Origin: an uncultured Aquitalea sp.
Lineage (GTDB): Bacteria > Pseudomonadota > Gammaproteobacteria > Burkholderiales > Chromobacteriaceae
Direction: 5' to 3'
Length of the DNA: 64,000 nucleotides
NCBI RefSeq assembly: GCF_945957525.1
Contig: NZ_CAMFLA010000014.1
Span: 1-64,000 of the forward strand
The notes beneath the pieces are model-generated. The model had not been told where the DNA came from. It saw only the letters and a list, made by a program, of their open reading frames with translations, and did not search any database. Below are positions 3,708-61,616 of the stretch, in pieces. Each line of letters starts with the position of its first letter. Within the stretch, counting starts at the first letter, position 1. The translations under genes were made by a program, and so were the position numbers.

Positions 3708-5875
3708 CAACCGGCCCTCCCCACTTTGCCCTGCTGCAGGGCTTCGATGACGGCCTGTTTGGGCCCATCGGCGACAATCGCGCCGTTGTCGATCACGATC
3801 AGACGGTCAGCCAACTCCATCAAGGAGGTGTGATGGGTGACGATGATCATGGTCTTGCCGGGCATGACGCGGGTGAAGGTCTGCTTGATCTGGCTCTCCG
3901 TGGTGTTGTCCATATTGCTGGTGGGTTCATCCATCAGCAGGATGGGCGGCGCATTCAACAAGGCGCGGGCAATGGTAACCGCCTTGCGCTGACCGCCGGA
4001 AAGCGAATCGCCCCGCTCGCCGATGATCATGTCGAAGCCGTCCGGGTGGCCGTTGATGAAGTCCGACAGGCCGGCCAGTTCGGCCGCGGCGGCCACGCTG
4101 GCATCGTGCGCGTGCGGCGCGCCCATGGCGATGTTCTGCCGCAACGTGCCGTAAAACAGCACCGGGTCCTGCGGCATGTAGCCGATATGGCGGCGCAACT
4201 CGGCCGGGTCGATCTGGTTGATGTCGATGCCGTCGATGCGCACCGAGCCCTCGGTAGGCTGGTACAGGCCGAGAATCAGCTTCTGCAACGTCGACTTGCC
4301 GGAGCCTACGCGGCCGATGATGGCCACGCGCTCGCCGGCGCGAATCTTGAAGGACACATTGCGCAGCGCGGTTTGCGGATTGTTGGGGTAGCTGAAGGAC
4401 ACATTGCGGAACTCGATCTCGCCGCTGAAGCTGGTGCGGTGGAAGAAGTTGGCGTCCTGCTCGCGCTCCACCGGCATCTTCATGAAGCCATCCAGCGAAG
4501 CCAGCGAGGTCTTGGCATTGTGATACTGCGTCATCAGCCCCACCAGCTGGCCCAACGGCGCCATGGCGCGGCTGGACAGCATCACTGCGGCAATCACGCC
4601 GCCTTGCGAGGTGTTGCCTTCGAAAATCTGGTAAATGCCCAGCACCAGCATCACCACCGACACCGACTGCTGAATGAAGCCGGAGAAGTAGTTGGCCGAA
4701 GCCGCCAGCAACTTGAGGCGGGCGCCCACTTGCGCCAGAAACAGCGTGGACTGCTCCCAACGGCCCTGCTGCATGCCCTCCGCCGCCAGAATCTTGATGG
4801 TTTCCAGCCCGGCCAAGTTTTCCACCAGCAAGGCATTGCGCTGCGCGGACGCGCGCAACGTGGCCTCGGTCAGCTCCTCCATCTTTTCCTGAATCAGCAG
4901 GGCATAGAGGATCATGATGGCCCCGCCCACCACCAACGGCACCGCCAGGATCGGCGAAATCCACATGATGACAATAAGGAAAATCAGCAGAAACGGCAGA
5001 TCGATCAAGGCCGTAATGGAAGCGGAAGCAATAAAGTCGCGCACGGTTTCAAAAGCGCGCAGGTTGGCCGAAAAAGCGCCTACGGAAGCAGGCCTCGCCT
5101 CCATGCGGATGCCCAGCACCCGTTCCATGATCAGCGTGGACAGCGTCACATCCACCCGCTTGCCGGCCAGATCCACCAGATAGCTGCGCGTCATCTTCAG
5201 CAAAAAGTCGAAGACAAACGCCAGCAGCGCGCCGATGGCCAGCACCCACAAAGTCTCGGTCGCCATATTGGGTACGACGCGGTCGTACACATTCATGGAC
5301 ACCAGAGGCATCACCAGCGCAAACAGGTTGATCAGCAAGGCGGCCATCAAGGCGTCGCGGTACAGCGGATAGCCTTCGTATACGGTCTGCCAGAACCAGT
5401 GGCGCGAACGCACCTTGCTCAACTCCGGCGCGCGGCGCTCGAAAGCGAACCGCGGCCGCACAAAGATGGCGACGCCGGCGTATTTTTCCGCCAGCTCGGC
5501 GATCGGCAAACTCACTTCCGACTCGGTTAGCTCGGCAAAGCTCACCCTCGCCATGCCGGTGGCCTGATCGATGCCGCGCAGAATGCAGGCTTCGTCGCCC
5601 TTGAGCAGCAATACCGCCGGCAACAGCGCCTCGCGCAATTGCTCGACGGGCTGGCGCACTACGCGCGAAGCCAGGCCGATGCGGCGGGCGGAGCGGGAGA
5701 ACATGGAAGGGCTGAGCCGGTTGTCGGTCAGCGGAATGCCGGCCACCAATGACTCACGGGTAGCATTGATGCCGTAAGAACGAGCCAAGGCAAACAGGCA
5801 ATCCAGCAGCGGATCAAGATGGGTAGCCTGTAAGGGAATGGAACTCGCCTGCGGTCCTTTGAACTCGGATTGCAT
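3707..5875 (-). CDS. LapB-like type I secretion ABC transporter (ATPase/permease)
   Basis: A 722-residue half-size exporter, expected as a homodimer that drives secretion of the neighbouring adhesin. The N-terminal 130 residues are a C39-like domain. A Cys remains in DPLLDCLFAL (C26), but I see no conserved catalytic His, as in LapB/HlyB-type proteins that do not cleave a leader. The middle carries about six membrane helices. The ATPase has Walker A GRVGSGKST, signature LSGGQRKAV, Walker B ILLMDEPTSN and a switch His (IIVTHH). It is the first gene of the three-gene secretion operon. The ATG at 5875 follows a long AT-rich upstream stretch. Confidence 0.94.
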   Translation of the reverse strand: MQSEFKGPQASSIPLQATHLDPLLDCLFALARSYGINATRESLVAGIPLTDNRLSPSMFSRSARRIGLASRVVRQPVEQLREALLPAVLLLKGDEACILRGIDQATGMARVSFAELTESEVSLPIAELAEKYAGVAIFVRPRFAFERRAPELSKVRSRHWFWQTVYEGYPLYRDALMAALLINLFALVMPLVSMNVYDRVVPNMATETLWVLAIGALLAFVFDFLLKMTRSYLVDLAGKRVDVTLSTLIMERVLGIRMEARPASVGAFSANLRAFETVRDFIASASITALIDLPFLLIFLIVIMWISPILAVPLVVGGAIMILYALLIQEKMEELTEATLRASAQRNALLVENLAGLETIKILAAEGMQQGRWEQSTLFLAQVGARLKLLAASANYFSGFIQQSVSVVMLVLGIYQIFEGNTSQGGVIAAVMLSSRAMAPLGQLVGLMTQYHNAKTSLASLDGFMKMPVEREQDANFFHRTSFSGEIEFRNVSFSYPNNPQTALRNVSFKIRAGERVAIIGRVGSGKSTLQKLILGLYQPTEGSVRIDGIDINQIDPAELRRHIGYMPQDPVLFYGTLRQNIAMGAPHAHDASVAAAAELAGLSDFINGHPDGFDMIIGERGDSLSGGQRKAVTIARALLNAPPILLMDEPTSNMDNTTESQIKQTFTRVMPGKTMIIVTHHTSLMELADRLIVIDNGAIVADGPKQAVIEALQQGKVGRAG

Positions 5876-6026
5876 ACTGCCCCTAGCATTTATTTCTGGT
5901 TGTATGCTGACACTTTGGCCAGCTTATGCCGGGATTCTAAACGATGCCATGTGACGAGAAAACTCATTAATTATAAAAATAATTCCAGTTTAAAATCAGA
6001 CCATGTTTGAGAAGCTTTCACACAGC
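5876..6026 (-). promoter_or_regulatory. Upstream region and likely promoter of the secretion operon
   Basis: This 151-bp gap is AT-rich compared with its surroundings. On the minus strand a perfect TATAAT lies at 5970-5975, about 95 nt upstream of the exporter start, with only a weak -35 candidate about 17 nt further up. With the terminator at 6027-6054, the 308-bp gap between the exporter and DUF2069 genes shows nothing else I can support. Confidence 0.4.
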
Positions 6027-6054
6027 AAAAAGCCCGCCAGGCGGCGGGCTTTTT
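6027..6054 (-). terminator. Bidirectional terminator downstream of tatC/DUF2069
   Basis: A 7-bp GC stem (GCCCGCC at 6032-6038 with 6043-6049) and a 4-nt loop are flanked by A5 on the left and T5 on the right, so it can stop transcription in either direction. It lies about 130 nt beyond the DUF2069 stop. Confidence 0.85.
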
Positions 6055-6183
6055 CATGGTGCGGCAAGAGCGCCAGCGGGGCAGGACACCTGCCGCAGGG
6101 CAGGCTGCGCCTGGTTTTCCCTCTTGCAACCCAAGCCAGGCAGACAAGATAAGCGCAGCAGAGAAAACTGTTGTCAGCCGTCC

Positions 6184-9989: not shown

Positions 9990-10027
9990 AAAAAAGGGTT
10001 GGCCGAAGGCAAGCCTTCGGCCAACCC
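9990..10027 (-). terminator. Terminator-like hairpin between hisA and hisF, built from an inverted TTGGCCGAA pair
   Basis: A perfect 15-bp inverted repeat (9996-10010 with 10013-10027, 2-nt centre) is made from the motif GGTTGGCCGAAGG and its complement. On the minus strand six T follow. It has every mark of an intrinsic terminator but lies inside the his gene run, so it probably lowers hisF-I-E expression or hides a second promoter. Confidence 0.8.
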
Positions 10028-10801: not shown

Positions 10802-11443
10802 TTAGACACTGCCGTCCCAGGCGAGGAAGTTCTTCATCATCTGAAGGCCCGCCCGGTGGCTCTTTTCGGTGTGAAACTGTGTGGCAAAGATATTGCCACG
10901 CCCGACGATGCAAGAGAATCGTGCGGGGTATTCGCTTTCGGCCAAGGTCAGTGCTGCGTCGGCCGGAGCAAAATGGTAGCTGTGGACGAAATAAAACCGC
11001 TCGCCGTCTTCAATGCCCTTGAACAAGGGATGGGGTACGGTCTGCCAAACCCGGTTCCAACCCATGTGCGGCACTTTCAGGCGTTCGCCCGCGCTGTCTT
11101 TCAGGTTAGCCGAAAAACGGACCACATTGCCCGGAAACAGACCCAGGCCGGCCGTATCGCCCTCTTCGCTGTGCTCGAAAAGCAACTGTGCGCCCACGCA
11201 GATGCCGAAAAACGGCTTGCTGCGGGTGGTTTCGCGCACGGCTTCGGCCAAGCCGTAGCCGTTGAGTTCGCGCATGCAGTCCGGCATCGCGCCCTGACCG
11301 GGAAAGATCACCTTGTCGGCTTTGACAATGGCGTCCGGATCGCTGGTCAGAAAAATGTCGGCGCCAATCTCGTTGACCGCCTGTACCGACTTGAGCACCG
11401 AATGCAGGTTGCCCATGCCGTAATCAATCACTGCGACTTTCAT
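10802..11443 (-). CDS. hisH: Imidazole glycerol phosphate synthase glutaminase HisH
   Basis: A 213-residue class I glutamine amidotransferase that supplies ammonia to HisF. It shows VIDYGMGNLHSV, the oxyanion loop FPGQGAMPDCM, the nucleophile Cys in FFGICVGAQLLFE and the His/Glu of the triad in ATQFHTEKSHRAG. It lies between hisB and hisA. Confidence 0.97.
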   Translation of the reverse strand: MKVAVIDYGMGNLHSVLKSVQAVNEIGADIFLTSDPDAIVKADKVIFPGQGAMPDCMRELNGYGLAEAVRETTRSKPFFGICVGAQLLFEHSEEGDTAGLGLFPGNVVRFSANLKDSAGERLKVPHMGWNRVWQTVPHPLFKGIEDGERFYFVHSYHFAPADAALTLAESEYPARFSCIVGRGNIFATQFHTEKSHRAGLQMMKNFLAWDGSV

Positions 11444-12067: not shown

Positions 12068-13138
12068 TCAGGCGAAATAGCGGGCCAGCGCGTCAAGCAC
12101 GGCCGTGTTGTCGTCGGGGCTGCCCACGGTAAAACGCAGGCACTGCGTCAGCAGCGGGTGGCTGCCGTGCAAGTTCTTGATAAGAATGCCATTCTTCTTC
12201 AGCCATGCAAACAGGGCGGGCGCATCGGGCACGCGCGCTGTGACAAAATTGGCCTCCGAAGGATAGGCGGCAACGCCGGGCAAGGCGGCCAGCCCGGCAT
12301 ATAGGCGCTCGCGCTCCGCGCGCAACTGCGCAGCCTGCTCGTTGAATACGTCCAGATGGCGCAAGGCGAAACGGGTGGCCGCTTGGGTCAGCACATTGAT
12401 GTTGTAGGGCGGACGCACTTTGTCCAGCTCGTCGATCCAGGCGGCCGGCCCGGCGGCGTAGCCCAGACGAATGCCGGCAAGACCGAGCTTGGAGAGGGTG
12501 CGCATCACTACCAGATTGTCGCGGCTGCCGGCCAGATCCATCAGGCTGTCGGCGGCAAAGGCCTGGTAGGCTTCGTCCACCACCACCAGACCAGGCGCGG
12601 CATCCAGTGCGGCCAGCACGTCTACGCGGGCAAAGCGCGGCCCGGTGGGATTATTGGGGTAGGACAGGAACAGCACCGCCGGCTGATGCTCGGCGATGGC
12701 GGCCAACAGGGCTGGCAGGTTGAGGCTGAAATCGTCATTGAGCGGCACGCCGATGTAATCAAGCCGGGAGAACAGTGCGTTCATCCGGTACATGACGAAC
12801 GACGGTTCCAGCGCCATCAGTTTGGCGCCGGGACGCGCCAGCGCCTGCGCGATCAGCGTGATGATTTCGTCGGACCCGTTGCCCAGCAGCACACTGGCGG
12901 CGTCGGGAATGGCGAAGGCTTGCTTCAGCAGCGGCTTGAGGCCGCCGCCAGCGGGATCGGGATAACGGTTGATGGCGGCTTCGGCCAACTCTCGGCCAAA
13001 CTCTGCCTTGAGGGATGCCGGCAGCTCATGGGGGTTTTCCATGGCGTCCAGCTTGATGAGGCCGCTGGCGTCGGCGACATGATAGGCCGCCATCTCGGCG
13101 ATTTCCGGGCGAACCAGTTGCTTGGCGGTCAGTGTCAT
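12068..13138 (-). CDS. hisC: Histidinol-phosphate aminotransferase HisC
   Basis: A fold-type I PLP enzyme of about 356 residues (step 7). Visible are [22 protein letters not shown], the substrate/PLP segment [18 protein letters not shown], and the Schiff-base Lys in [15 protein letters not shown] start it at ATG 13138 ([13 protein letters not shown]); 15 more codons are open upstream but do not look like the family. Confidence 0.95.
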
Positions 13139-18541: not shown

Positions 18542-19573
18542 TCATCCGGCCCAGTGACCATGCGCATCGCGGCGGCGGTACAGGGCAAGACGCGGGGTCA
18601 CCGCTCGCCAGCGCCGGCGAGCGGCCGGCTGCAGGCAGCGCCCCAGCAGCGTGGCGGCGCAGGCCAGCAACAACATGGCCGTCGCGTTGTGCGCCACCGC
18701 CACCGGCAAGGGCAATGCCAGCAAGACATTGGCCATGCCCAAGCCCACCTGCGCGGCCCACAGGACGATCAGCAAGAGCGCGTGCGCGCGCAACTCCGCC
18801 TCGCGCCAGGCCAGCCAGGTGCAACGCCAAGCCAGTACGCTGACCAGCAGCGCGCCCAGCCGGTGCAGCCAATGCACAGCGATCAGGCTTTCGCCCGCCA
18901 AGGGCGCGCCATCCGCCGCCTCGCCGGCTTCTCGCAACCAATGAAACGCCTGATCGAAGCGCATGGCCGGCCACCATTCGCCGTTGCAGGCGGGAAATCC
19001 CTGACAGGCCAGCGCGGCGTGACTGGACGATACCCAACCGCCCAGTGCGACCTGCGCCAGCAATGCCAACACCAGCAGACTCAGGGCGCGGCGCAAGCCC
19101 TTGCTCGCCGCCAGAGGACGCCAGGCGGGCGACAAGGCGCGCCACGCCAGCGTCGCGACAATGCTCATGCCCAGCAGCAAGTGCAGCGTCACGACCACCG
19201 GTTTGAGCAACAAGGCAACAGTCAGCATGCCAAGCAGGCCCTGCGCCAGCACTGCCGTCAGGAGAAGGTTGGCCGAAGCGCGGCCCTGCCGACGACGGCG
19301 GGCTTGGCAGGCCGTCAGCAGAATGCAAACGCCCAGCAGACTGGCGGCGTAACGGTGAGCCATCTCTTTCCAGGCCTTGTCCAGACTGACCGGCCCGGCG
19401 GGATTGGCGCTTTCAGCGCGCAAGATATCGGCGCGGGCGTGATGCGGCGATACGTGGCCATAGCAGCCCGGCCAGTCAGGGCAGCCCAGCCCGGCGTCCG
19501 ACAACCGCACATACGCCCCCAGCGGCACCACCAGACAAGCCAGCAATAGCGAAAACCAGGCGAGTCGTCTCAT
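18542..19573 (-). CDS. ctaA: Heme A synthase CtaA
   Basis: A 343-residue, eight-helix membrane protein that oxidises the C8 methyl of heme O to give heme A. It shows [21 protein letters not shown], an early His-containing helix ([12 protein letters not shown]), [20 protein letters not shown] and a late heme-binding His ([12 protein letters not shown]). ATG 19573 has a very strong GGAGGAGG-type ribosome site. It pairs with ctaB, 16 nt downstream. Confidence 0.94.
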
Positions 19574-20093: not shown

Positions 20094-20796
20094 GCTCGCG
20101 CCCCTTGCCATAACGCCGCGCCTGCCAGCACAAACACAGACCCAGCAAAGCCCATTGCAGGGCATAGCCGTAATGACGGGCGGAGGACAGCGGCGGATCT
20201 TCCGGCCAGACCGTCATGCCAGCCTGCGGATTGAGCGCCACCACACCCGCGCGCCAAACGCCGGGCCAAAGCGCCATCAAGGCTTGACGATCCAGCCGGT
20301 CCACCACGCCCGTCGCGCCCACCCGTGCCCCGCCCAGCACAAAACGCTCATGCCAGGGCTGCCACAGCCCGCTGACGTCCCGGCCCGGCCGCCACGGCGG
20401 GACGGGACGGCCTTCGGCCAACCAGCCCAGATCCAGCAAAACCCGGCTGCCGTCCGCCAGCGCCGCCGGCTGCAATACGCGATAACCCGGCTTGCCTTCC
20501 AGCAGGCTGTTGTCCAGCAACACCGGCTCGCCCAATGGCGCGGCACGCCCCAGGCGCACGCTTTGCCAGCCCGGCGCGGCGTCTGCCGGCAGGCTTTGCA
20601 TGATTTGCGGCGGCCGGGTTTGCGAAGCCGCCAGCGCATCTTCCCAGCTGGCTTTCTCCACGCCGCGCAACACTTGCCACAGCGACAGCACAAACGGTAA
20701 CAAGGCGATAACCATCAGAAACCCACGCAGCCGCTTTTTGCCACTAGACTGAAAACTGGTTCGGCCCGCGCCGGCCCCTCCGGAGGAAGCGCCCAT
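20083..20796 (-). CDS. SURF1-family cytochrome oxidase assembly protein
   Basis: About 237 residues with an N-terminal helix (FLMVIALLPFVLSLWQVLRG), the SURF1 GYRVLQPAAL and VLLDLGWLAEGR (normally the 'VLV(N/D)RGW(I/V)' stretch), and a C-terminal helix (HYGYALQWALLGLCL). SURF1 proteins help heme A insertion. The start is uncertain: ATG 20796 shares its bases with the opposing ATG at 20795 (a CATG), while ATG 20715 would begin right at the membrane helix. The C-terminal tail overlaps the next gene. Confidence 0.82.
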   Translation of the reverse strand: MGASSGGAGAGRTSFQSSGKKRLRGFLMVIALLPFVLSLWQVLRGVEKASWEDALAASQTRPPQIMQSLPADAAPGWQSVRLGRAAPLGEPVLLDNSLLEGKPGYRVLQPAALADGSRVLLDLGWLAEGRPVPPWRPGRDVSGLWQPWHERFVLGGARVGATGVVDRLDRQALMALWPGVWRAGVVALNPQAGMTVWPEDPPLSSARHYGYALQWALLGLCLCWQARRYGKGREHES

Positions 20797-22054: not shown

Positions 22055-22599
22055 GATCCGCGCCCCTCTTGGCCGGACGGCACCTCGTACACCGTGTAGC
22101 CCAGCGTCACGCTGTCCACCCCGGCGGGCAGCGCCTTGTCTATCACCAGCACCACTGGAAATCGCCGTGTTTCGCCCGGCGAGAAGGCCTGCTGGCTGAA
22201 ACAGAAACATTCCAGCTTGCGCACATGCGCGGCGGCCTCGGCCGGCAGATAACGCGGAATGGCCTGCCCCACCACGCGCCGGTTGCTGTTGTTGGTGATT
22301 TCATACTCCAGCTGGATGAAATCCCCGGTGCGCCCGGCCACCAGCCTGGTCAAGGGCCGCACCTGCCAGGGCAGGCCGGCCTCCGTGGTGGCGTCCAGCA
22401 CCAGGCTCACCGGCCGCGCCGACAAGCCGGCCTGCTCCTTCGGCAAACCATCGGCGCTCACTACCCGGTTCAGCCCGGTCGCTTCGCAAATCACCCGATA
22501 AAGCGGAATCAGCCCCCAGGCGAAGGCAAACATCAGCAAGGCCGCCAACGTCAGTCGGCGCAGCAGCGCAAGGTTGGCCGAAGCCAGCGGCGCGGCCAT
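22051..22599 (-). CDS. ctaG: Cytochrome c oxidase assembly protein CtaG/Cox11
   Basis: A 182-residue copper chaperone for the CuB site. It has an N-terminal helix (LTLAALLMFAFAWGLIPLYRVICEATG) that includes a conserved Cys, here split as LTLAALLMFAFAWGLIPLYR and VICEATG. The Cox11 copper motif follows in KLECFCFSQQAFSPGE and the domain end in VTLGYTVYEV. I start at ATG 22599, with AGGAG 8 nt upstream inside the coxA stop region. Confidence 0.94.
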   Translation of the reverse strand: MAAPLASANLALLRRLTLAALLMFAFAWGLIPLYRVICEATGLNRVVSADGLPKEQAGLSARPVSLVLDATTEAGLPWQVRPLTRLVAGRTGDFIQLEYEITNNSNRRVVGQAIPRYLPAEAAAHVRKLECFCFSQQAFSPGETRRFPVVLVIDKALPAGVDSVTLGYTVYEVPSGQEGRGS

Positions 22600-25715: not shown

Positions 25716-26342
25716 TCAGCCCTGGTAGGGAATTTCCAGCAACATGGGCGCGGGGATGGCCGCCTTCAGCGTGGCGAGATTGTCTTCGTAGGCCAACTGA
25801 TCGGGCACCACCCGGTTGGCCACCCAGCCAGCCAGCGTCAGACCGGCGCCGCGAATGGCGCGCGCGGTCAGCAAGGCGTGGTTGATGCAACCCAACCGCA
25901 TGCCCACCACCAGGATCACCGGCAGGGCCAGACGCCGCGCCATGTCTTCCATGCAGAGCTCATCGGTCAGCGGAGCCAGCCAACCGCCGGCCGCCTCCAC
26001 CAGCACGACATCCGCCTCTTCGGCCAACCTTTGGTAATGCGCGGCGATCACTTCCAGAGAAATGAGCTGCCCCGCCTCACGCGCTGCGATATGCGGCGAC
26101 ACCGGCGGCAAAAAGCGATAGGGATTCATCAGCGCCAGGTCCTGCTGACCCGTGGCGGCGCTCAAGCGGGCCACATCGTCGTTCCACCAGCTGCCGTCGT
26201 CGCGGATTTCACAGCCGGAGGCCACCGGCTTCATGGCCAGCACGCGCCGGCCCTGTGCCTGCCAGTGGCGCGTCAACGCCACAGCAGAATGGGTCTTGCC
26301 GATTTCGGTGTCGGTGCCAGTAATGAAATAGCCTTGTGCCAT
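25716..26342 (-). CDS. bioD: Dethiobiotin synthetase BioD
   Basis: A 208-residue P-loop enzyme closing the ureido ring of biotin. GYFITGTDTEIGKTHSAVAL carries the P-loop, followed by VLAMKPVASGCE, VVLVEAAGGWLAPLTDELCM and VILVVGMRLGCINHALLTAR. ATG 26342 fits the family N-terminus, although the frame is open 49 codons further upstream. It stands alone, with no bioA/F/B/C in the window. Confidence 0.94.
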   Translation of the reverse strand: MAQGYFITGTDTEIGKTHSAVALTRHWQAQGRRVLAMKPVASGCEIRDDGSWWNDDVARLSAATGQQDLALMNPYRFLPPVSPHIAAREAGQLISLEVIAAHYQRLAEEADVVLVEAAGGWLAPLTDELCMEDMARRLALPVILVVGMRLGCINHALLTARAIRGAGLTLAGWVANRVVPDQLAYEDNLATLKAAIPAPMLLEIPYQG

Positions 26343-28545: not shown

Positions 28546-28813
28546 TGTTGTGCTCCTGCAGCATTAATGGGTTCAATGTATCGACCTGAGGACATTTCGT
28601 CAAAGATGCGATGTCTAAATTCACTCACAATTTGAAAGCCCTGTGTCAAATTCACAAATATTAGACTTAATGTCTAATATTTGCAGTGTATTTGGACTTC
28701 TTTGTGCACCACTCAGCCACAAAAACGCTAAACCGCCCGCTCGCAGCCCGGTATAACTCAGAAAATTGGACAAATTGCGCTTCGGCCAACCTTGTCTGCC
28801 TCGACAGGCACCG
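28546..28813 (-). promoter_or_regulatory. leuA upstream region with three ATGTCTAA boxes
   Basis: An AT-rich non-coding stretch upstream of the leuA frame. ATGTCTAA occurs at 28532-28539 (over the leuA start), 28611-28618 and 28670-28677. The last is one arm of the perfect dyad at 28655-28683. A CTTCGGCCAACCT motif lies at 28780-28792. I see no gene. Confidence 0.55.
28655..28683. promoter_or_regulatory. Perfect 29-bp dyad operator upstream of leuA
   Basis: CAAATATTAGAC (28655-28666) and GTCTAATATTTG (28672-28683) are perfect inverted arms of 12 bp around TTAAT. It lies 110-138 nt upstream of the first leuA ATG, and its half-site recurs twice nearer the gene. There is no T-tail, so a protein-binding operator is the best reading. 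Confidence 0.65.
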
Positions 28814-43970: not shown

Positions 43971-45002
43971 CTACATCGGCAACCCGATTTCAGCTCGGGC
44001 GCGCACCCAGTCGAACCAGGGGCCAGGGTCGGTCTTGCGGCCCGGCGCAATATGCTCGTGCCCGGTCATTGCGCGCAAAGGCAGCCGGCTTTTAAGCTCT
44101 GCCGCCAGCGCCTCGAGCATGCGGTACTGCGCATCGGCAAAGGGCTCGAAGTCGCAACCCTCCATCTCCACCCCGATGGAAAAGTCATTGCAGCGCTCCC
44201 GACCCTCCCATTGCGATGCGCCGGCGTGCCAGGCGCGCTTGTGCACCGGAACGAATTGCAGCAATTGGCCATTGCGGCGGATGAAGAAATGGGCGGAGAC
44301 CCGCAAATCGCGCAGTTGGCCGAAGAAAGGATGCGCCTCCGGGTCCAGATGATTGGTGAACAACTGCTCCACCGCAGGCCCGCCATAGCGATACGGCGGC
44401 AGGCTGATATTGTGGATCACCAAGAGTTCCGGCACGCCGGTTTCCCGTTCGTCGCAATTGGGAGACGGTATCTGGCGCGCTTCGCGCACCCAGCCCGACT
44501 CGTCCAGATGCAACGCCGGCAAGGGCGCTTGTCGACGATAGTTCAGCCGCCACAGCAGCAGCCCGTCGCTGGTGCTCCAGCGCTGCTCCAGCACAAAACC
44601 CGCCTTGTGATACAAGGCCACGGCGGCCGCATTCACCTCCGCCGTGTCCACGCTCACCTCTTCGCTCCCGGGCAAGAGATGGTTGAGCAGGTGGTTCAGC
44701 AGGCGATAGCCCCACCCTTCGCCAAAACGCGCCGGGTCCACCACGGTGCGCTCGATGTGAAAGCCGCCCTGCTGCCGCGCGCTGACCACCAGCACCCCGC
44801 ACAGGGTCTCGCCCTCGAACGCGCCCAACACGCGATGCGGGCTGCGCGCCACCTCGTCCGCCTGCGACCACATCAGCGGCAACGCCGGGTAGGATAGCCA
44901 GTCCGCCTCCACCTGATGCGCCGCCAGCTGGATGCGCAGCGCTTCGGCCAACAGGGCCGGGTCGTTGCGCGGCAGGTCCTTCACGACAAATGGTGCGTCC
45001 AT
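43971..45002 (-). CDS. GNAT acetyltransferase-AmpD amidase fusion
   Basis: A 343-residue two-domain protein. Residues about 5-155 look like a GNAT fold: VLGAFEGETLCGVLVVSA, a central FHIERTVVDPARFGEGWGYR leading to the acyl-CoA helix, and VNAAAVALYHKAGFVLEQRW. Residues about 180-343 are a full AmpD-type amidase: H197 in LLVIHNISLPP, E279 in IGVEMEGCDF, H315 and D325 in TGHEHIAPGRKTDPGPW. AmpD cleaves L-Ala from anhydro-muropeptides in cell-wall recycling. No stop separates the domains. ATG 45002 has AAAGGGA upstream. The acetyl acceptor is unknown. Confidence 0.9.
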   Translation of the reverse strand: MDAPFVVKDLPRNDPALLAEALRIQLAAHQVEADWLSYPALPLMWSQADEVARSPHRVLGAFEGETLCGVLVVSARQQGGFHIERTVVDPARFGEGWGYRLLNHLLNHLLPGSEEVSVDTAEVNAAAVALYHKAGFVLEQRWSTSDGLLLWRLNYRRQAPLPALHLDESGWVREARQIPSPNCDERETGVPELLVIHNISLPPYRYGGPAVEQLFTNHLDPEAHPFFGQLRDLRVSAHFFIRRNGQLLQFVPVHKRAWHAGASQWEGRERCNDFSIGVEMEGCDFEPFADAQYRMLEALAAELKSRLPLRAMTGHEHIAPGRKTDPGPWFDWVRARAEIGLPM

Positions 45003-45995: not shown

Positions 45996-47057
45996 TCAGG
46001 CGGTGAGCTTCAGCAACTGCTCGAAGGCGTCGTCGAACAGCTTGAGGCCGTCCTGTTGCAGCTTCTCGCCCACAGCCGGCAGATCAATGCCGCTGGCGGC
46101 GGCATCGGCCAAAACCCGCAGCGCGCCTTCGGCGTCCATCGGCAGGGTCAGCGCGGCAGTGCCGTGGTCGCGGAAAGCCGCCAGCGTGCCGTCCGGCACG
46201 GTATTGACGGTTTCGTCGCCGATCAGGCTTTCCACGTACAGCACGTCGGAGTAAGCCGCGTTCTTGGTGCCAGTGGATGCCCACAGCAGGAACTGCGGAC
46301 GCGCCCCGGCCGCCTTGAGGGCGGCGAATTCCCCACCATGGAAGCGCGCCTGATAGCGGGCATAGGCCGCCTTGGACAGCGCAATGGCCACTTTGCCTTG
46401 CAGCGGCGCCGGCAGTTGCGGGTCCAGCAGGCTGTCCACGCGCGACAGGAAGAAGCTGGCCACGGCCTTGACGCCGGACACCGCTTCACCGGCTGCCAGG
46501 CGGGCGCTCAGGCCTGCGATGTAGGCATCCCACACCGCTTCCACCTGCGGCAGGCTGAACAGCAGCGTGATGTTGACGTTGACGCCTTCGCGGGTCAGCG
46601 CCTGGAAGGCGCGGATGCCTTCCGGCGTGGCCGGGATCTTGATCATGGCGTTGGGGCGGGCAATCTCGGCCCACAAACGGCGGGCGGCCGCCAGGGTGCC
46701 CGCCTCGTCGCGCGACAGCGCCGGCGACACTTCCAGACTCACATAGCCGTCATCGCCGCCAGTGGCCTGATACTGCGGCAGCAACAGGTCGCAGGCGGCC
46801 TGGATGTCCGGCACCACCAGCGCTTCGTAACGCTGCTCGGCGCTCAGGCCGGCATCCTGCTTCAGGCGCGCCAGATCGTCCTGATAGCGGGCGTCGGTGC
46901 TGATGGCCTTGTAAAAAATAGCCGGATTGGAGGTGACGCCGGCAATGCCGTCATCTTGCAACAGGCGGGACAGTTCGCCGGAGGCGATTAGTTCGCGGGA
47001 CAGATTATCCAGCCAGATACGTTGGCCGAAGGGACGAATGGATTGCAGACGATTCAT
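45996..47057 (-). CDS. tal: Transaldolase
   Basis: A 353-residue TIM-barrel enzyme of the non-oxidative pentose phosphate pathway. IWLDNLSRELIASGELSRLL with GIAGVTSNPAIFYKAI is typical of the longer actinobacterial/cyanobacterial/betaproteobacterial class. VSLEVSPALSRDE follows, then the Schiff-base Lys in ARPNAMIKIPATPEGIRAFQ and LLWASTGTKNAAYSDVLYVE. ATG 47057 is the family start. Confidence 0.94.
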   Translation of the reverse strand: MNRLQSIRPFGQRIWLDNLSRELIASGELSRLLQDDGIAGVTSNPAIFYKAISTDARYQDDLARLKQDAGLSAEQRYEALVVPDIQAACDLLLPQYQATGGDDGYVSLEVSPALSRDEAGTLAAARRLWAEIARPNAMIKIPATPEGIRAFQALTREGVNVNITLLFSLPQVEAVWDAYIAGLSARLAAGEAVSGVKAVASFFLSRVDSLLDPQLPAPLQGKVAIALSKAAYARYQARFHGGEFAALKAAGARPQFLLWASTGTKNAAYSDVLYVESLIGDETVNTVPDGTLAAFRDHGTAALTLPMDAEGALRVLADAAASGIDLPAVGEKLQQDGLKLFDDAFEQLLKLTA

Positions 47058-47447: not shown

Positions 47448-47491
47448 GGGGCTTTCTCCAACGTTGGCCGAAAGCCCCGGCGACATGGCGG

Positions 47492-50399: not shown

Positions 50400-51524
50400 T
50401 CAGGCGTCCAGCAGGCGCGACTTTTGCAGTTTCACCGCGCCGGCTATCTTGGCCACGGTGCCGCCCAGATGGGTGTAGGGGTGATGAATGCCGGCATACA
50501 GCACGCCTGCCGTGCCCGCGCGCACCTCGCTCGCGCGGCCGTCCACGGTGTCCACCACCTCGGCCACCAACTGGCCCGGCTCAATCCACTCGCCCATGGC
50601 GGCGTGCAGCACCACCACACCGGCGTGCGGCGCGGTCAGCGTCTCCGAGCCTTCCAGCGGCGTGGCCGGATAGGGCAGCGGCAGCACGGGCGGCGCGTCT
50701 TCGGCCAACAGGCCCTGATACCGCAGGAAATCCAGAATGGCGTTGGCGTCCTGTCGTGCCAGCTCGTGGTTCACATCCTGCTGGCCGCGCAACTCCACCG
50801 TCACCGACACGCTGTCTACCGGAACGGGCTTGCCGGGCAAGGCGTCGCGAATGCGCAGCCAAGGCATGAAGATGGCCTCGTCAAAAGGCATGCCGCCGTA
50901 GGAGTCGGCCAGCAAGGACACCGGACAGCGCAAATAAGCCGCCAGCGCTTCCACGCGCGGCCATTGTTCGTTGTTGGCGTAAATGTGGATGGCGCCGCGC
51001 CATTCGCAGTGCAGATCAATCACCAGATCGGCATCCACCGCCAGCAAATGCAATTGCTGGCGCAGGCTGGCCAGCTCGCTGTCCACGCTTTGCGCCTGCA
51101 GCGCCTCGCGCAGGGCCTGGCGGATCAGGCTGCGATTGTGATCGATGTCGTCGGTAAGGCGCTCGCCAACGGCCGCCACGACCTGCGCCGAGGGCTCGGC
51201 ATAGTAACGATTAAAGTTTTCGCCGCTGTCCAACTCGAAACGGCCGACGCTGTTGTGCAGCACGCGCTGGGCCAGGCCGATGGGGTTGGCCATCGGCACC
51301 AGCACCACTTCGCCGCGCAGCTTGCCTTCCGCCTCCAGCCTTGCAAGCGCCTCGCGCAGATGGTGGGCCACCAGCATGCCGGGGATCTCGTCGGCGTGCA
51401 GGCTGCTCTGGATATACACCTTGCGCGGCCAAGCACCCGCGGCGGGCGCGCCAAAGTGATAACTGGTGAGTTCGTGATAACGGCCGATACTGGCGGAGGC
51501 CAGCCGGTGATGGTTTTTTTGCAT
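50400..51524 (-). CDS. M14-type deacylase/peptidase of the AstE/AspA (succinylglutamate desuccinylase) family
   Basis: A 374-residue zinc hydrolase. Metal ligands H43 and E46 (QSSLHADEIPGM) and H172 (VIDLHCEW), with catalytic Glu 243 in VTVELRGQQDV, give the carboxypeptidase/AstE catalytic set. The C-terminal part (LTAPHAGVVVLHAAMGEWIE) is a barrel-like domain found in the peptidase-like branch, not in true AstE. No other arginine-succinyltransferase genes are near, so I would not call it astE. The substrate is unknown, probably an N-acyl amino acid or small peptide. Confidence 0.85.
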   Translation of the reverse strand: MQKNHHRLASASIGRYHELTSYHFGAPAAGAWPRKVYIQSSLHADEIPGMLVAHHLREALARLEAEGKLRGEVVLVPMANPIGLAQRVLHNSVGRFELDSGENFNRYYAEPSAQVVAAVGERLTDDIDHNRSLIRQALREALQAQSVDSELASLRQQLHLLAVDADLVIDLHCEWRGAIHIYANNEQWPRVEALAAYLRCPVSLLADSYGGMPFDEAIFMPWLRIRDALPGKPVPVDSVSVTVELRGQQDVNHELARQDANAILDFLRYQGLLAEDAPPVLPLPYPATPLEGSETLTAPHAGVVVLHAAMGEWIEPGQLVAEVVDTVDGRASEVRAGTAGVLYAGIHHPYTHLGGTVAKIAGAVKLQKSRLLDA

Positions 51525-51588: not shown

Positions 51589-51626
51589 AAAAAAATTGCC
51601 GAAGAACCAGACGGTTCTTCGGCCAA
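51589..51626 (-). terminator. Terminator downstream of gap, built from an inverted TTGGCCGAA-type pair
   Basis: The stem GCCGAAGAACC/GGTTCTTCGGC (51598-51608 with 51613-51623) has an AGAC loop and is followed on the minus strand by AATTTTTTT. The right arm extends into CTTCGGCCAACCT. It lies about 190 nt past the gap stop and just upstream of the AstE-like gene. Confidence 0.82.
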
Positions 51627-54800: not shown

Positions 54801-57305
54801 TCAGATGGCGGGCCAGCAATGTCTTGCCCGGTCACGCACCTGGGCCGCGGACGGCAGGCCCAGCAGTTGCACCACCTCGCGCTGGCAGGCGGCGAACTCC
54901 AGGGTGCGCACGCGTTGCTTGATTTCCGGCACCAGCGCGGCGCTGACCGACAGCTCGGTCACACCCAGCCCCACTAGCACCGGCACCGCGTCCGGATCGG
55001 ACGCCAGCGCACCGCACACGCCTACCCACTTGCCGTGCTGGCGAGCGCCTTCCACCGTCATGGCGATCAGGCGCAGCAAGGCCGGGTGCAGAGAATCCAG
55101 CCGGGGCGCGAGGGCCGCGTTGCAGCGATCCATGGCCAGCGCGTACTGGGTCAGGTCATTGGTGCCTATGGACAGGAAATCAGCGTGGCGAGCCAGCTGT
55201 TCGGCCAACAGGGCCGCGGACGGCACTTCGATCATGGCGCCCAGTTGCGGACGCTCGCGCAGGCCCAAGCGCTGCGCAATGAGGTCGATGCGGGCTCGCA
55301 CGGCAATGATTTCGTTAGCCTCCGTCACCATTGGCAGCAGAATGCGCAGGGACGACAGCGGCGCGACCGACAGCAAGGCCTCCAGCTGCGCGTCCAGGAT
55401 GTGCGGATCGGCCATGCCGCTGCGGATGCCGCGCAGGCCCAGCGCCGGATTCGGTTCCGGCGGCAGCGGCAGGTAGGGCACTTCTTTGTCCCCGCCCACA
55501 TCCATGGTGCGGATGATCACCGGCCGGCCTTGCATGGCGTCCAGCACGGCCTGATAGGCGTCGCGCTGCTCACGCACATCCGGCGCGATATCGCGTTCGA
55601 TAAAGAGGAATTCGGTACGGGTCAGCCCCACGCTGTCGGCACCATACGCCAGCCCTTCGCAAGCGTCGGCGGCATTGGCGATATTGACCGCCACTTCCAC
55701 GCTAACGCCATCCAGCGTCACGGCGGAAGCGGAGGCGCAGGCCTGCATTTGCTCGCGGCGCTGGCGCAGCCGGGCGATTTCCCGCTCCGCGTCGGCCAGT
55801 ACCTTGGCCGAAGGCGCGGGATCGCAAACGCCCTGCCCGGCATCCAGCAGTACCGTGCGACCGTCTTCCAGCGCCAGCGCGGGCGCGCCGCACGCCACCA
55901 GCGCCGGAATGCCCAGCGCGCGGGCCAGAATGGCCACATGCGCGGTTGCGCCACCGGCGGCGGTGATCATGCCGGCCACTTGCTCGCGCGGCAGGCTGGT
56001 CAGTTGCGAGGGGGTAATGTCTTCGGCCAACAGGATGGCGGAGGCCGGTAAAACCGGCGCGGCGGCGTCAGCGCCGGCCAGCGCGCGCGCCACCCGGCGG
56101 CGCAGGTCTTTCAGGTCGCCCACCCGCTCGGCCAGCAGGCTGTTGCCCAGCGAAGCCAGCACGCGGCATTGCTCTTCCACCGCCGTGCCGAACGCGAAAC
56201 CGGCGCTCTTGCCTCCGCTGATCAGACCATCGGCGCGCGCCGCCAGCTCGGGGTCGTCCAGCAAGGCGAGGTGCGCGGTGAAGATGTCGCTTTCCGCCGT
56301 TGCGCCGCGTCGCAGCGCCTCGGAAATGGTCTGGCTGATGTCCTGACGCACTGTTTGCAAAGCCTGCGACAGCGCATCGCGCTCGTCGCCGGCATTGCCG
56401 GCGGTTTCCGCAAACACTGGCTCCGTCTGGTCCAGACAGACAATACTGCCCACCGCTAGGCCCGGCGCAGCGCAAACGCCGGCAATGCGGCCGTCCTCCA
56501 GCACACGGCCGATCGGCCCGGCGCTGGCGGCTACAGGCGCGTGGTCGGTCTTGCTGCGTTTTTGCAGCGCGGCAATCACCGCCACTACCGCTTGCTCGGC
56601 ATCCTCGCCCTGGGCCAGCACATGCACGCGGTCGTCTTCGGCCACGCTCAGGCCCATCAGCGCCACCATGCTCTTGGCGTTGGCGCGCCGGCCCTGGAAC
56701 TCGATGCTGATGTCGGCGCGGAAGGCGCGGGCGGCATTCTGCACCAGCGCGGACGGACGGGCATGCAAGCCGCCTTCGTGACGCACCGTGGCCGCGCCGG
56801 CGGCGCTGGGGCCTGCCGCCGCACCGGCCTCCGCCACCGCATCCAGCGGCGCGACGGTCAGCAAAGGCGACTGGCCGGCCAGCACCGAAGCACCGGCGCG
56901 TTGCGCGACGCGGAACAGATCGCCGTTGGGCACCACCAGCAGGGTGATCAGCGATGGCGCACGACGCCCCACCGCATCCAGATCCACTTCAATCAGACAT
57001 TGGCCGCGCGCCACGCGCTCGCCCTCGGCCACGCAGGCATGGAAGCCCACGCCGCCCAGCTGAACGGTGTCGATACCAATATGCAGCAGGATTTCAGCGC
57101 CGTTGTCGGCGGTCAGGGTAATGGCGTGCGCGGTGCGGGCCAGTTGCGCGACCACGCCGTCGCAGGGAGCCAGCAGACGGCTGGAGAGCGGATCGATGGC
57201 AATGCCGTCGCCCATCATGCGGCCGGCGAACACCGGGTCCGGCACCTGCTCCAGCGGGATTACCGGGCCGCTCAGCGGGGCGGTCAGTTCGATAGCGTAG
57301 GTCAT
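54801..57305 (-). CDS. PTS multiphosphoryl transfer protein EIIA-HPr-EI
   Basis: An 834-residue fusion that brings phosphate from PEP to NagE. EIIA(Glc type) covers about 1-150 with phospho-His H75 (ILLHIGIDT) and supporting H60. HPr covers about 172-255 with H181 (GGLHARPSAL) and S212 in the regulatory-Ser position (NAKSMVALM). EI covers about 272-834 with active His H456 (AAGGATAHVAILARALGIPA), and PEP-binding and Cys-type C-terminal motifs (YLPLPPEPNPALGLRGIR, VGVCGALASDP). ATG 57305 has GGAGGAG before it. Such fusions are known in GlcNAc operons of betaproteobacteria. Confidence 0.95.
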   Translation of the reverse strand: MTYAIELTAPLSGPVIPLEQVPDPVFAGRMMGDGIAIDPLSSRLLAPCDGVVAQLARTAHAITLTADNGAEILLHIGIDTVQLGGVGFHACVAEGERVARGQCLIEVDLDAVGRRAPSLITLLVVPNGDLFRVAQRAGASVLAGQSPLLTVAPLDAVAEAGAAAGPSAAGAATVRHEGGLHARPSALVQNAARAFRADISIEFQGRRANAKSMVALMGLSVAEDDRVHVLAQGEDAEQAVVAVIAALQKRSKTDHAPVAASAGPIGRVLEDGRIAGVCAAPGLAVGSIVCLDQTEPVFAETAGNAGDERDALSQALQTVRQDISQTISEALRRGATAESDIFTAHLALLDDPELAARADGLISGGKSAGFAFGTAVEEQCRVLASLGNSLLAERVGDLKDLRRRVARALAGADAAAPVLPASAILLAEDITPSQLTSLPREQVAGMITAAGGATAHVAILARALGIPALVACGAPALALEDGRTVLLDAGQGVCDPAPSAKVLADAEREIARLRQRREQMQACASASAVTLDGVSVEVAVNIANAADACEGLAYGADSVGLTRTEFLFIERDIAPDVREQRDAYQAVLDAMQGRPVIIRTMDVGGDKEVPYLPLPPEPNPALGLRGIRSGMADPHILDAQLEALLSVAPLSSLRILLPMVTEANEIIAVRARIDLIAQRLGLRERPQLGAMIEVPSAALLAEQLARHADFLSIGTNDLTQYALAMDRCNAALAPRLDSLHPALLRLIAMTVEGARQHGKWVGVCGALASDPDAVPVLVGLGVTELSVSAALVPEIKQRVRTLEFAACQREVVQLLGLPSAAQVRDRARHCWPAI

Positions 57306-57452: not shown

Positions 57453-58475
57453 TCAATGCGTGCGGGTCACCTTGGAAAGATGGCGCGGCGCGTCCGGGTT
57501 CAAACCCCGCGCTTCCGACAGCTGCGCCGCCATCAGGTAAAAACTCTGGATGGCCAGCAGCGGATCCAGCGCTTCGTCGTCTGCCACCGCCAGCGTCAAG
57601 TCGCGACCGGCGATATCGGCCGGCGCGGCCAGCAACACGCTGGCACCGCGGCCACGCATTTCTTCGGCCAACTTGATGAGGCCGTCCTGCTCCGGACCGC
57701 GCGGCGCGAACACCAGCAGCGGGTAACCCTGATCAATCAGGGCCATCGGGCCGTGTTTGATTTCGGCGCTGGAGAAGGCTTCCGCCTGAATGGCGCAGGT
57801 TTCCTTGAACTTGAGCGCGGCTTCCAGCGCCACGGCGAAGCCCAGCCCGCGTCCCACCACCATGATGCGTTCGGCCGGCGCCAGCACCGGGATGGCGGCG
57901 GACCAGTCCTGCTCACAAGCCTGTTTCAGTTTTTCCGGCAGCGTTTCCAGCGCGCCGAGCAGGCCGCGATCGTCCTGCCAGTGCGCCACCAGTCGCGCCA
58001 CGGCGGACAAGGAAGCGATGTAGCTCTTGGTAGCGGCGACGCTGCGCTCTTCACCGGCGCACAGCGGCAAAGACCATTCGCAGGCGGCGGCCAGCGGGGA
58101 TTCATGCTTGTTGACCAGCGCCACGGTGCGCGCGCCGGCGTTGGCGAGGCGGGTCATGGTGTCGATCAGGTCCGGGCTCTGGCCCGATTGGGAGAGCGCC
58201 ACCGCCAACTGGCCTTTCACCGCCAGCGGAGCCTGATGCAAGGTAACCAGCGACATCGGCAGGGACACCACCGGCACGCCCAGTCGCTGCATGGCGAGGT
58301 AGGCGAAGTAGCTGGCGGCGTGGTCCGAGCTGCCGCGCGCCACGGTCAGCGCCAGCGTGGGCGGCGCGGCGGCCAGTTCGCGGGCCAGCACGGCCAGCCC
58401 TTCATCGGCGTACATGTGCTGGCTGGCAACGGCGTCGGCCGCGGACAAGGCTTCTTCATACATCAGCGACGGCAA
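57453..58475 (-). CDS. nagB-II: SIS-domain glucosamine-6-phosphate deaminase, NagB-II type
   Basis: A 340-residue protein with two SIS domains, like the isomerase half of GlmS without the glutaminase. It has LALTVARGSSDHAASYFAYL, VALSQSGQSPDLIDTMTRLA, VVGRGLGFAVALEAALKFKE with ETCAIQAEAFSSAEIKHGPM, and the GlmS-like LNPDAPRHLSKVTRT end. In GlcNAc operons this family replaces classical NagB, turning GlcN-6-P into Fru-6-P and ammonia. The start is probably TTG 58475 (GGGAG 6 nt before it), overlapping nagA by 20 nt; ATG 58463 is an alternative. Confidence 0.9.
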   Translation of the reverse strand: MPSLMYEEALSAADAVASQHMYADEGLAVLARELAAAPPTLALTVARGSSDHAASYFAYLAMQRLGVPVVSLPMSLVTLHQAPLAVKGQLAVALSQSGQSPDLIDTMTRLANAGARTVALVNKHESPLAAACEWSLPLCAGEERSVAATKSYIASLSAVARLVAHWQDDRGLLGALETLPEKLKQACEQDWSAAIPVLAPAERIMVVGRGLGFAVALEAALKFKETCAIQAEAFSSAEIKHGPMALIDQGYPLLVFAPRGPEQDGLIKLAEEMRGRGASVLLAAPADIAGRDLTLAVADDEALDPLLAIQSFYLMAAQLSEARGLNPDAPRHLSKVTRTH

Positions 58476-59577
58476 GGTGTTCTCCCTCGAGGTAAACGTC
58501 CAACAGATTCAGATCGGCATCCATGACCACCACATCCGCCCAGGCCCCTTCGGCCAACCTGCCGCGATCCTCGTGACCGAGGTAATCGGCCGGATACAGC
58601 GACAGGCGGTGCGAGGCCTCGGCCAGCGGCAGGCCGATGGACACCAGATTGCGCAGCGCCTGATCCATGGTCAGCGTGCTGCCGGCCAGCGTGCCGTCGG
58701 CAAGACGCACGCCGCCCATGCATTTGGTCACCGAATGAGAACCCAGCTTGTACTGGCCGTCCGGCATGCCGGACGCGGCAGTGGAATCCGTCACGCAGTA
58801 AAGGCGCGGAATGGCGCGCAAGGCGGTGCGGATGGCACCCGGATGCACGTGCAAGAGATCGGGAATCAGCTCGGCGTACTCGGCATGCGCCAGCGCCGCG
58901 CCCACCATGCCCGGTTCGCGGTGATGCAGGCCGGTCATGGCGTTGAAGAGATGGGTAAAGCCGGCCGCGCCCTGTTCCAGCGCCGCCACGCCGTCCTCAT
59001 AAGAACCCAGCGTGTGACCGATCTGCACCCGTACGCCGGCATCCGTCAGCGCGCGGATGATGTCCATATGGCCGGGAATTTCCGGCGCCAGCGTGATCAG
59101 CGGCACCGGTGCCAGCGCGCGCAGGCGCTCCACTTGCGCCAGAACGGCGCGACAGGCGTCGTCAGGCTGGGCGCCCAGTTTGCCGGGGTTGATGTAGGGG
59201 CCTTCCAGGTGCACGCCCAGCAGGCGCGCGCCGCCGGCCGCACGCTGACGGCAATGCGGCGACAGCGCCGCCAGTACGGTTTCGATTTCCTCGATGGGCG
59301 CGGTCATGGTGGTGGCCAGCATGGCGGTAGTGCCGTGGCGGGCATGCAGGCGGGACACCGCCTCGGCGGCATTGCCGCCTTCCATGATGTCCACCCCGCC
59401 GCCGCCGTGTACGTGCAAGTCGATGAAGCCCGGCAACAGGTAGCGCTCCACCTGCCGGCCCGAAGCCAGCCTGCCCTCAATGCCGGCCACGCGGCCGTCT
59501 GCGCCCAGCGCGAGCGCGCCGTCCAGCCAGCCGGCGTCGGTCAGGATGCGTCCTTGCAGTACACGGGTGTCGTTCAT
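58456..59577 (-). CDS. nagA: N-acetylglucosamine-6-phosphate deacetylase
   Basis: A 373-residue amidohydrolase removing acetate from GlcNAc-6-P. It shows GFIDLHVHGGGGVDIMEGG, ATTMTAPIEEIE, the metal Glu in GVHLEGPYINPGKLGAQPD, IGHTLGSYEDG, THLFNAMTGLHHREPGM, and the catalytic Asp in YCVTDSTAASGMPDG. It overlaps nagR by 4 nt and nagB-II by 20 nt. Confidence 0.96.
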   Translation of the reverse strand: MNDTRVLQGRILTDAGWLDGALALGADGRVAGIEGRLASGRQVERYLLPGFIDLHVHGGGGVDIMEGGNAAEAVSRLHARHGTTAMLATTMTAPIEEIETVLAALSPHCRQRAAGGARLLGVHLEGPYINPGKLGAQPDDACRAVLAQVERLRALAPVPLITLAPEIPGHMDIIRALTDAGVRVQIGHTLGSYEDGVAALEQGAAGFTHLFNAMTGLHHREPGMVGAALAHAEYAELIPDLLHVHPGAIRTALRAIPRLYCVTDSTAASGMPDGQYKLGSHSVTKCMGGVRLADGTLAGSTLTMDQALRNLVSIGLPLAEASHRLSLYPADYLGHEDRGRLAEGAWADVVVMDADLNLLDVYLEGEHLAVADV

Positions 59578-60447: not shown

Positions 60448-60547
60448 CCAGTGCAAAACAGCCACAGGGTGTGGCATTCCAAGCCACTGATGACAAGGCA
60501 TTTTTTGCGCAGCGCAGCAAACCGGAATCAACAAAAAACAGAATAAT

Positions 60548-60564
60548 TGGTATTTAAGTGGTGG
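60548..60564 (+). promoter_or_regulatory. Second TGGTATT-type site in opposite orientation
   Basis: TGGTATTTAAGTGGTGG reads on the + strand, with two half-sites 11 bp apart, as in the nag promoter array but inverted and about 130 bp further upstream. No + strand gene follows, so a looping or auxiliary operator is more likely than a second promoter. Confidence 0.5.
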
Positions 60565-60737
60565 AAATCAGGCAAGCTGAATCGTGTCAGCAGCGGTCAG
60601 CCGGCAAAAACACGTCAGAGCAACAAAGCGGGGTCAGAGCAGGCGACATTGCCTGCAGGCAGGGGCGGGAAAGAAAAACAGCGCGGCCCGCGCGCCCGGG
60701 CAAGGCGACGCGGGTTGCGGCGGGCGGGGCATCACGA

Positions 60738-61616
60738 TCAGCGCTTGCGCCAGCTGATCAGCACCACACCGGAAAGGATGACCACCATGGCGATGATCTC
60801 ATGCGCGCCAATGCGCTCGCCCAACAGCATGACGCCCAGTAACACCGCGATTACCGGATTGACATAGGCGTAGCTGGTGGCGGCGGCCGGGGTAACGGTT
60901 CTGAGCAGATAGAGATAGGCGCTGTAAGCCACCATGGAACCGAACACCGATAAATACAGAATGGCGGCCCAGCCTTGCCAGGCCGGCGCGGCGTGCAGGC
61001 TTTCGCCGGAAGCGGCGCTGCCGGCCAGCAAGGCCAGCCCGCCGAAGATCATCATCCAGGCGCTGCCCATCGGCCCCTTGGGCTGGGCAATCACCCGGCT
61101 CCAGGCCGAACCCAGCGCCCAGCCGGCGGAAGCAAACACCAGCCAGAAAGCCCCTGTCGGGCTGGCGCGCAGGTTGGAACCGAAATTCAGAAACACCATG
61201 CCGGCAAAACCCAGGGCAATGCCGGCCCATTCACGCCCGGCGGCACGTTGGCCGAAGAAAAAGCGGCCGAACAACACCGTGAACAAGGGCACGGTGGCCA
61301 CCACCAACGCCGCCACGCCGGACGACACTTCCTTTTCAGCCAGCGTGACAAAACCATTGCCGATGGCCGGCATCAGCACGCCCAGCACCGCTGCGCCGAC
61401 CAGCTCGCGTCGCTCAGGCAGTTTCTCGCCGCGCCAGAGCAGCCAAGCCAGCATCACGCCGCCGGCAAAAAGGAAACGGAGGCCTGCCATCATGAAGGGC
61501 GGCCAGTATTCGATGCCGATGCGGATGCCGAAATAGGTGGAGCCCCAGATCACATACAGGGCGAAGAAAGCGGCCAGAGTAAGCCAACGACGGGATACTG
61601 CGGGGTGGGACGACAT
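60738..61616 (-). CDS. EamA/DMT-family exporter (YedA-like)
   Basis: A 292-residue drug/metabolite transporter with ten helices in two EamA repeats: LYVIWGSTYFGIRIGIEYWP, FMMAGLRFLFAGGVMLAWLL, LAEKEVSSGVAALVVATVPL, and YLLRTVTPAAATSYAYVNPV, AVLLGVMLLGERIGAHEIIA. It matches the YedA branch. The start is unsettled: ATG 61616 is directly preceded by a hairpin and has no ribosome site, while ATG 61658 adds 14 residues and also lacks one. The substrate is unknown. Confidence 0.9.
   Translation of the reverse strand: MSSHPAVSRRWLTLAAFFALYVIWGSTYFGIRIGIEYWPPFMMAGLRFLFAGGVMLAWLLWRGEKLPERRELVGAAVLGVLMPAIGNGFVTLAEKEVSSGVAALVVATVPLFTVLFGRFFFGQRAAGREWAGIALGFAGMVFLNFGSNLRASPTGAFWLVFASAGWALGSAWSRVIAQPKGPMGSAWMMIFGGLALLAGSAASGESLHAAPAWQGWAAILYLSVFGSMVAYSAYLYLLRTVTPAAATSYAYVNPVIAVLLGVMLLGERIGAHEIIAMVVILSGVVLISWRKR

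Follow-up and report, generated by a model that had tools for sequence, protein, structure and literature searches.

A candidate ComP-read DNA uptake sequence, with new dialects, in an uncultured Aquitalea genome and other Chromobacteriaceae

The closest described systems are the DNA uptake sequences (DUS) of the Neisseriaceae, with ComP as receptor, and the uptake signal sequences (USS) of the Pasteurellaceae. The CTG core is conserved in all eight DUS dialects (Frye et al. 2013, PMC3630211), and the origin of DUS is a long-standing question: that paper, the main one on the dialects, places DUS-based transformation after the split from Chromobacterium violaceum, in which its BLAST search found no ComP, and in its passages on these strains reports no obvious DUS in Lutiella nitroferrum 2002, Pseudogulbenkiania NH8B, two Chromobacterium genomes and Laribacter. 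The USS core is given as GCGG, with PpdA/ComN as proposed receptor, in the sections of PMC12616744 that deal with it. Here we describe a motif with the core consensus AGGTT[G/T]GCCGAAG in positions 1 to 64,000 of contig NZ_CAMFLA010000014.1 (the window) of an uncultured Aquitalea sp. (GCF_945957525.1; Chromobacteriaceae). Judged from sequence, it is very probably a DNA uptake sequence that ComP reads and that comes in new dialects, and most likely marks the organism's own DNA for uptake from the surroundings.

In the window, the 9-mer TTGGCCGAA has 29 exact copies, 12 on the plus and 17 on the minus strand (Table 1), against a mean of 0.80 and a maximum of 4 in 100 dinucleotide shuffles. A previous sequence-only reading of this DNA, which proposed an uptake role, had listed 27 copies, all at exact coordinates, and missed those at 1944 and 55804; its rough estimate of under one copy expected in 64 kb agrees with the shuffles. 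It had named genome-wide frequency, flank consensus, conserved placement in relatives and a comP-type gene as points bearing on the proposal, and codon bias as the alternative. The 11-mer GTTGGCCGAAG occurs 23 times in the window (0.05 expected), and a second form, GTTTGCCGAA, unnoticed by that reading, 6 times (0.22 expected). Across the whole genome (4,045,770 bases) the counts are far above expectation: 1,497 copies of TTGGCCGAA (735 forward, 762 reverse) compared with 92 (42 + 50) of the reversed word, and 1,069 of GTTGGCCGAAG (520 + 549) compared with 5 (1 + 4). Under an order-5 Markov model, 4.0 copies of GTTGGCCGAAG and 2.9 of the second form GTTTGCCGAAG are expected in a 544,349-base genome sample (13%), where 152 and 58 were counted. 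The 194 copies of GTTGGCCGAA have a flank consensus of A (56%) and G (44%) before and G (78%) after. These copies lie in genes and gaps, as the reading had claimed: 145 are in coding sequence, 48 between genes and one on the edge of a gene. The intergenic count is rough, as it is based on simple gene calls made for this analysis (80 to 93% coding by stretch).

A gene for a ComP-type minor pilin is present outside the window, on contig C9 of the same genome, as the last gene of a minor-pilin cluster after polA; genes for ComEC and DprA are also present. Its product has a ComP-type pilin fold, and the closest solved structures, by both sequence and fold, are those of the Neisseria DUS receptor ComP (PF16732; PDB 2m3k, 5hz7, 2nba), with 27 to 36% identity in structural alignments. 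The ComPs of the family have in common a conserved ..LLENAHF.ERWY...G...WP.LP.. stretch and two invariant C-terminal cysteines, and a ComP-type minor pilin was found in 23 of 23 motif-bearing family genomes. This homology and the presence in every carrier point to ComP as the putative reader of the motif. The genome holds four separate minor-pilin clusters (L092, L087, L088, L093), two of them with PilY1-like genes of more than 1,100 residues (PilY1 by our own reading). In G075, a genome of the motif-less genus group g8, the ComP-like match (L232) has an in-frame TGA, so that this comP-like gene may be decaying.

The family set comprised 61 Chromobacteriaceae genomes in genus groups g1 to g10, with the window's genome in g1, and enrichment was taken as the count of GTTKGCCGMR over that of the reversed pattern. 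Twenty-three genomes carry the motif: the window's genome, three of g2, two of g3, two of g4, all 13 of g5, one of g6 and one of g10. Enrichment was at least 6-fold in 22 of them and 3.5-fold in G026, which the 11-mer settled as a carrier (116 copies versus 1 reversed); its short contig L199 (7.8 kb) has no motif copy. The 38 non-carriers (nine g1, 19 g7, six g8, four g9) show 1.4 to 2.7 times the reversed pattern. Presumed names are Pseudogulbenkiania ferrooxidans 2002 for G010, P. subflava for G019, a Pseudogulbenkiania metagenome-assembled genome for G026, Gulbenkiania mobilis for G014, strain JH1-16 for G011, Crenobacter luteus for G012 and Crenobacter oryzisoli for G020; we take g7 to be Chromobacterium and G032 to be C. 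violaceum ATCC 12472, and g5 may be Vogesella. G010, which by synonymy is presumably the same strain as Lutiella nitroferrum 2002, has 779 copies of the 11-mer and 2 of the reversed word.

Three dialects were distinguished among the sampled carriers. The form ending in GCCGAA (GTTGGCCGAA) belongs to the window's genome and the sampled g2, g3, g6 and g10 genomes, seven sampled carriers outside g4 and g5 having it; that ending in GCCGAG (GTTGGCCGAG) was found in both g4 genomes, and that ending in GCCGCA (GTTGGCCGCA) in 6 of 6 sampled g5 genomes (of 13), with AGGTTGGCCGAAG as the GAA-dialect counterpart of the GAG and GCA forms. The dialects of the sampled carriers follow phylogeny at genus level, in a tree of 13 genomes. 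No comparable word of another dialect was found among motif-less relatives in samples from G005 (260 kb), G069 (200 kb), G001 (80 kb), three g8 genomes (160 kb) and two g9 genomes (100 kb). The top words in these samples belonged to a tandem repeat or to tRNA genes, or were codon-like; in G005 (L115-L117, L179-L188) they come from a tandem repeat of the form ACTGGGAC and from tRNA genes. Among 250 sampled genomes of the order, the 243 outside the family have at most 221 copies of GTTGGCCGMR, in genomes of 5.6 and 7.0 Mb and at about 1.5 times the reversed pattern, compared with 1,442 to 2,348 copies in the four motif-bearing family genomes of the same sample. Several f49, f23 and f18 genomes show this pattern at 2- to 5-fold over its reverse; among counts above 20 outside the family, the highest ratio is 5.1 (G123, 82 versus 16), and G288 has 139 versus 31. 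This weak excess, 3- to 5-fold in some genomes of f18 and f49, may reflect codon use or a further dialect.

Placement was compared across 12 relatives, in regions of 20 kb surrounding the his operon. At one codon site of hisC, 8 of 9 aligned motif-bearing species have the motif, each in its own dialect; the site is without the motif in the window's genome and in three motif-less species, and G018 falls outside the alignment. Six of 34 distinct sites are common to at least two dialect groups, of which one, close to a start codon, may have arisen from the alignment itself. The 28 genome pairs that cross dialects, which are not independent, together show 27 exact site coincidences where 0.026 are expected. 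The dialects and their shared placement add support to the uptake reading. In an unrooted tree of 18 proteins from 13 genomes, the window's genome joins two motif-less g1 genomes with 100% support; motif-less G069 stands apart from that group and from the other motif-bearing genomes.

We prefer loss of the motif in some lineages to repeated gain, because two gains would need the same word to arise twice and because the window's genome has two sites in common with other dialect groups. By the unrooted tree alone, two losses are as parsimonious as two gains. A simple reading of uptake by ComP has against it that ComP is also present in 34 of the 38 motif-less family genomes, including the presumed C. 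violaceum, for which Frye et al. 2013 found none. The presence of ComP was accordingly rejected as a predictor of the motif.

With respect to mechanism, we infer that ComP binds the motif, that uptake is biased and that this bias drives the motif's spread. The type IV pilus would carry ComP as a minor pilin, which would bind free DNA holding the motif, and the pilus would pull this DNA in, with ComEC and DprA handing it on to recombination. DNA with the motif would enter more often, and copies would spread and be repaired by biased transformation, which could maintain a density near 0.5 copies per kb on either strand, at all places where the encoded protein can accommodate the motif. A shift in ComP specificity would then shift the whole motif set and yield genus-level dialects.

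That the excess stems from biased codon or amino-acid use, or from a family of terminators or dispersed repeats, is extremely improbable. Most of the 145 coding copies of the 10-mer do fall in one frame, Leu-Ala-Glu (LAE, 88 copies), with 28 as antisense Ser-Ala-Asn (SAN), 20 as antisense Phe-Gly-Gln (FGQ) and 9 in other frames, and the three tripeptides are themselves about twice as frequent as expected. Nevertheless, TTG GCC GAA is used for 98 of 234 LAE tripeptides where synonymous usage predicts 11.2 (about 9-fold), and enrichment extends to the antisense copies (48 of 145), the motif spelling being used for 21 of 33 FGQ (5.05 expected, 4-fold) and 32 of 56 SAN (4.1 expected, 8-fold); the codon bias that the sequence-only reading had allowed for does not account for the motif. 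One pair of copies in the window does form a terminator-like hairpin, but only six close pairs (at most 60 bases apart) occur among 274 copies in 544 kb, all six inverted and five intergenic, where random spacing alone gives 7.5 pairs of any kind. As conservation ends just outside the motif, the copies are not parts of a longer repeat.

A motif for chromosome upkeep, whether for recombination in the manner of Chi, for segregation or as a methylase-kept site such as cyanobacterial HIP1, is unlikely in our view. Like the motif, Chi-like sites and HIP1 are short words spread densely over whole genomes, and the motif contains a GGCC palindrome, but as a whole it is not palindromic. Nor does it show the orientation bias along the replichore of a Chi-type site: on the 352-kb contig C1, where GC skew is negative in 9 of 9 40-kb bins, 82 copies are forward and 94 reverse. 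The several dialects in one family, the absence from close relatives and the presence of ComP in every carrier fit uptake better. It is very unlikely, finally, that the motif is the relic of an uptake system no longer working in this species, with copies that decay slowly. Congeners with ComP but without the motif would suit a relic, as would an Arg in the ComP of the window's genome at a position (..ERW-Y) where 14 other aligned motif-bearing ComPs have Tyr, an Arg that the motif-less congeners also have. However, one-base variants of the 11-mer number only 0 to 15 each, against 152 exact copies, the exceptions being T at position 4 (58 copies, the G/T form) and A at position 11 (24), and because these variants are scarce there is little decay; the ComP and ComEC reading frames are open.

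A 14.5-kb gap in the motif on contig C1 (34214-48760) corresponds to the ribosomal protein operon; a foreign island (C1 34-48 kb) was rejected as its cause, since Pfam identified ribosomal protein, SecY and EF-Tu genes in 10 of 10 proteins tested, and the gap fits constrained genes. The motif is also nearly absent, as a single case, from one low-GC island: four 5-kb bins below 53% GC, all from this island, hold 1 copy, while bins above 57% GC have densities of 0.42 to 0.8 per kb. The stretch at C1 340001-352812 (about 51% GC) is free of the motif. PADLOC matches there include DrmA- and DrmB-like genes, a C5 methylase, a NERD-helicase and a UG14-type reverse transcriptase, which suggest a DISARM-like plus DRT (defence-associated reverse transcriptase) island. 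As regards hairpins, the sequence-only reading had described two inverted pairs as terminators. One stands as a strong terminator-like structure (14 pairs, -29.8 kcal/mol, z -6.1), the only inverted pair of exact copies within 60 bases in the window (9999-10024); no second such pair was found. As both flanking his genes read in the same direction, this hairpin may attenuate the his operon.

Table 1. Motif copies and the associated hairpin in the window; intergenic placement is by simple gene calls.
Feature	Position	Strand	Remark
TTGGCCGAA inside 11-mer GTTGGCCGAAG	1944..1952	-	
Motif copy (11-mer)	4692..4700	+	
Motif copy	5064..5072	+	same site is GCA form in G013 and G022
Terminator-like hairpin	9996..10027	-	formed by two inverted copies and followed by TTTTTT; flanked by his genes at 10040-10720 and 9211-9978
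Motif copy	9999..10007	+	left arm of inverted pair
Motif copy	10016..10024	-	right arm of inverted pair
Motif copy	10937..10945	-	C before core instead of G
Motif copy	11243..11251	-	C before core
Motif copy	12980..12988	-	in hisC-like aminotransferase gene; same site GAA in G014, GAG in G021
Motif copy (11-mer)	19269..19277	+	
Motif copy (11-mer)	20413..20421	-	
Second form GTTTGCCGAA	22439..22448	-	
Motif copy (11-mer)	22574..22582	+	
Motif copy (11-mer)	26019..26027	-	
Motif copy (11-mer)	28781..28789	-	intergenic
Motif copy (11-mer)	34189..34197	-	
Motif copy (11-mer)	34403..34411	+	
Second form GTTTGCCGAA	36408..36417	-	
Second form GTTTGCCGAA	38264..38273	+	
Motif copy (11-mer)	38926..38934	+	
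Motif copy (11-mer)	40807..40815	-	
Second form GTTTGCCGAA	41630..41639	+	intergenic
Motif copy (11-mer)	44316..44324	+	
Motif copy (11-mer)	44943..44951	-	
Motif copy (11-mer)	47022..47030	+	
Motif copy	47464..47472	+	intergenic
Motif copy (11-mer)	50700..50708	-	
Motif copy (11-mer)	51618..51626	-	intergenic
Second form GTTTGCCGAA	53266..53275	-	
Motif copy	55200..55208	-	
Motif copy	55804..55812	+	C before core
Motif copy (11-mer)	56022..56030	-	
Motif copy (11-mer)	57663..57671	-	
Motif copy (11-mer)	58549..58557	-	
Motif copy (11-mer)	61248..61256	+	
Second form GTTTGCCGAA	63088..63097	-	

In a literature search, no paper on an uptake sequence in Chromobacteriaceae was found by title among the matches listed, and of 201 papers with at least one of four motif strings, the 20 listed include no title on uptake sequences; the string may stand in Table S1D of Frye et al. 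2013 (PMC3630211), a supplement which, as the article describes it, gives 10-mers that are over-represented in Lutiella nitroferrum 2002 and other genomes. As against the main text of that paper, the motif was found here in Chromobacteriaceae, G010 included. What appears to be new is the word, its dialects and a matching receptor gene in the family neighbouring the Neisseriaceae.

Like the Neisseriaceae DUS, the motif is a short, dense word on either strand, inside genes and between them, with an inverted pair in a terminator-like hairpin, dialects at genus level and a putative receptor of ComP type; two forms occur in one genome, as PMC3630211 reports in its account of the Simonsiella DUS. 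Aligned without gaps, AGGTTGGCCGAA matches AG-mucDUS at 9 of 12 bases (shuffled P 0.012), and the core alone at 7 of 10 (P 0.18), which weakly suggests common descent of the two words. At the positions aligned with the CTG core of DUS (+6 to +8), by contrast, CCG is found, CTG is on neither strand of the core, as the sequence-only reading had recognised in calling the core different, and GCCGTCTGAA has no copy in the window. The motif would therefore work like a DUS, but because the CTG core of all eight dialects is absent we do not class it with the DUS of the Neisseriaceae. Compared with the Pasteurellaceae USS, as presented in the relevant part of PMC12616744, the proposed function is of the same kind and the density is alike, while the word (AAGTGCGGT or ACAAGCGGT) is unrelated, the GCGG core being found by inspection in neither GTTGGCCGAAG nor its complement.

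A possible scenario, offered tentatively, is that sequence-specific uptake based on ComP predates the split of Neisseriaceae and Chromobacteriaceae as one inherited system, in which the words drifted across the supposedly essential CTG core; on at least two occasions Chromobacteriaceae would have rewritten hundreds of sites in concert, with GAA, GAG and GCA now at matching positions in genes, and the word would have been dropped, and the receptor kept, in Chromobacterium and in the congeners of the window's genome. With a second family that has dialects of its own, a ComP ortholog and close relatives bearing ComP but not the word, three questions become directly testable in environmental species: the origin of DUS, how far the CTG-core rule extends, and how a receptor and thousands of sites change together.

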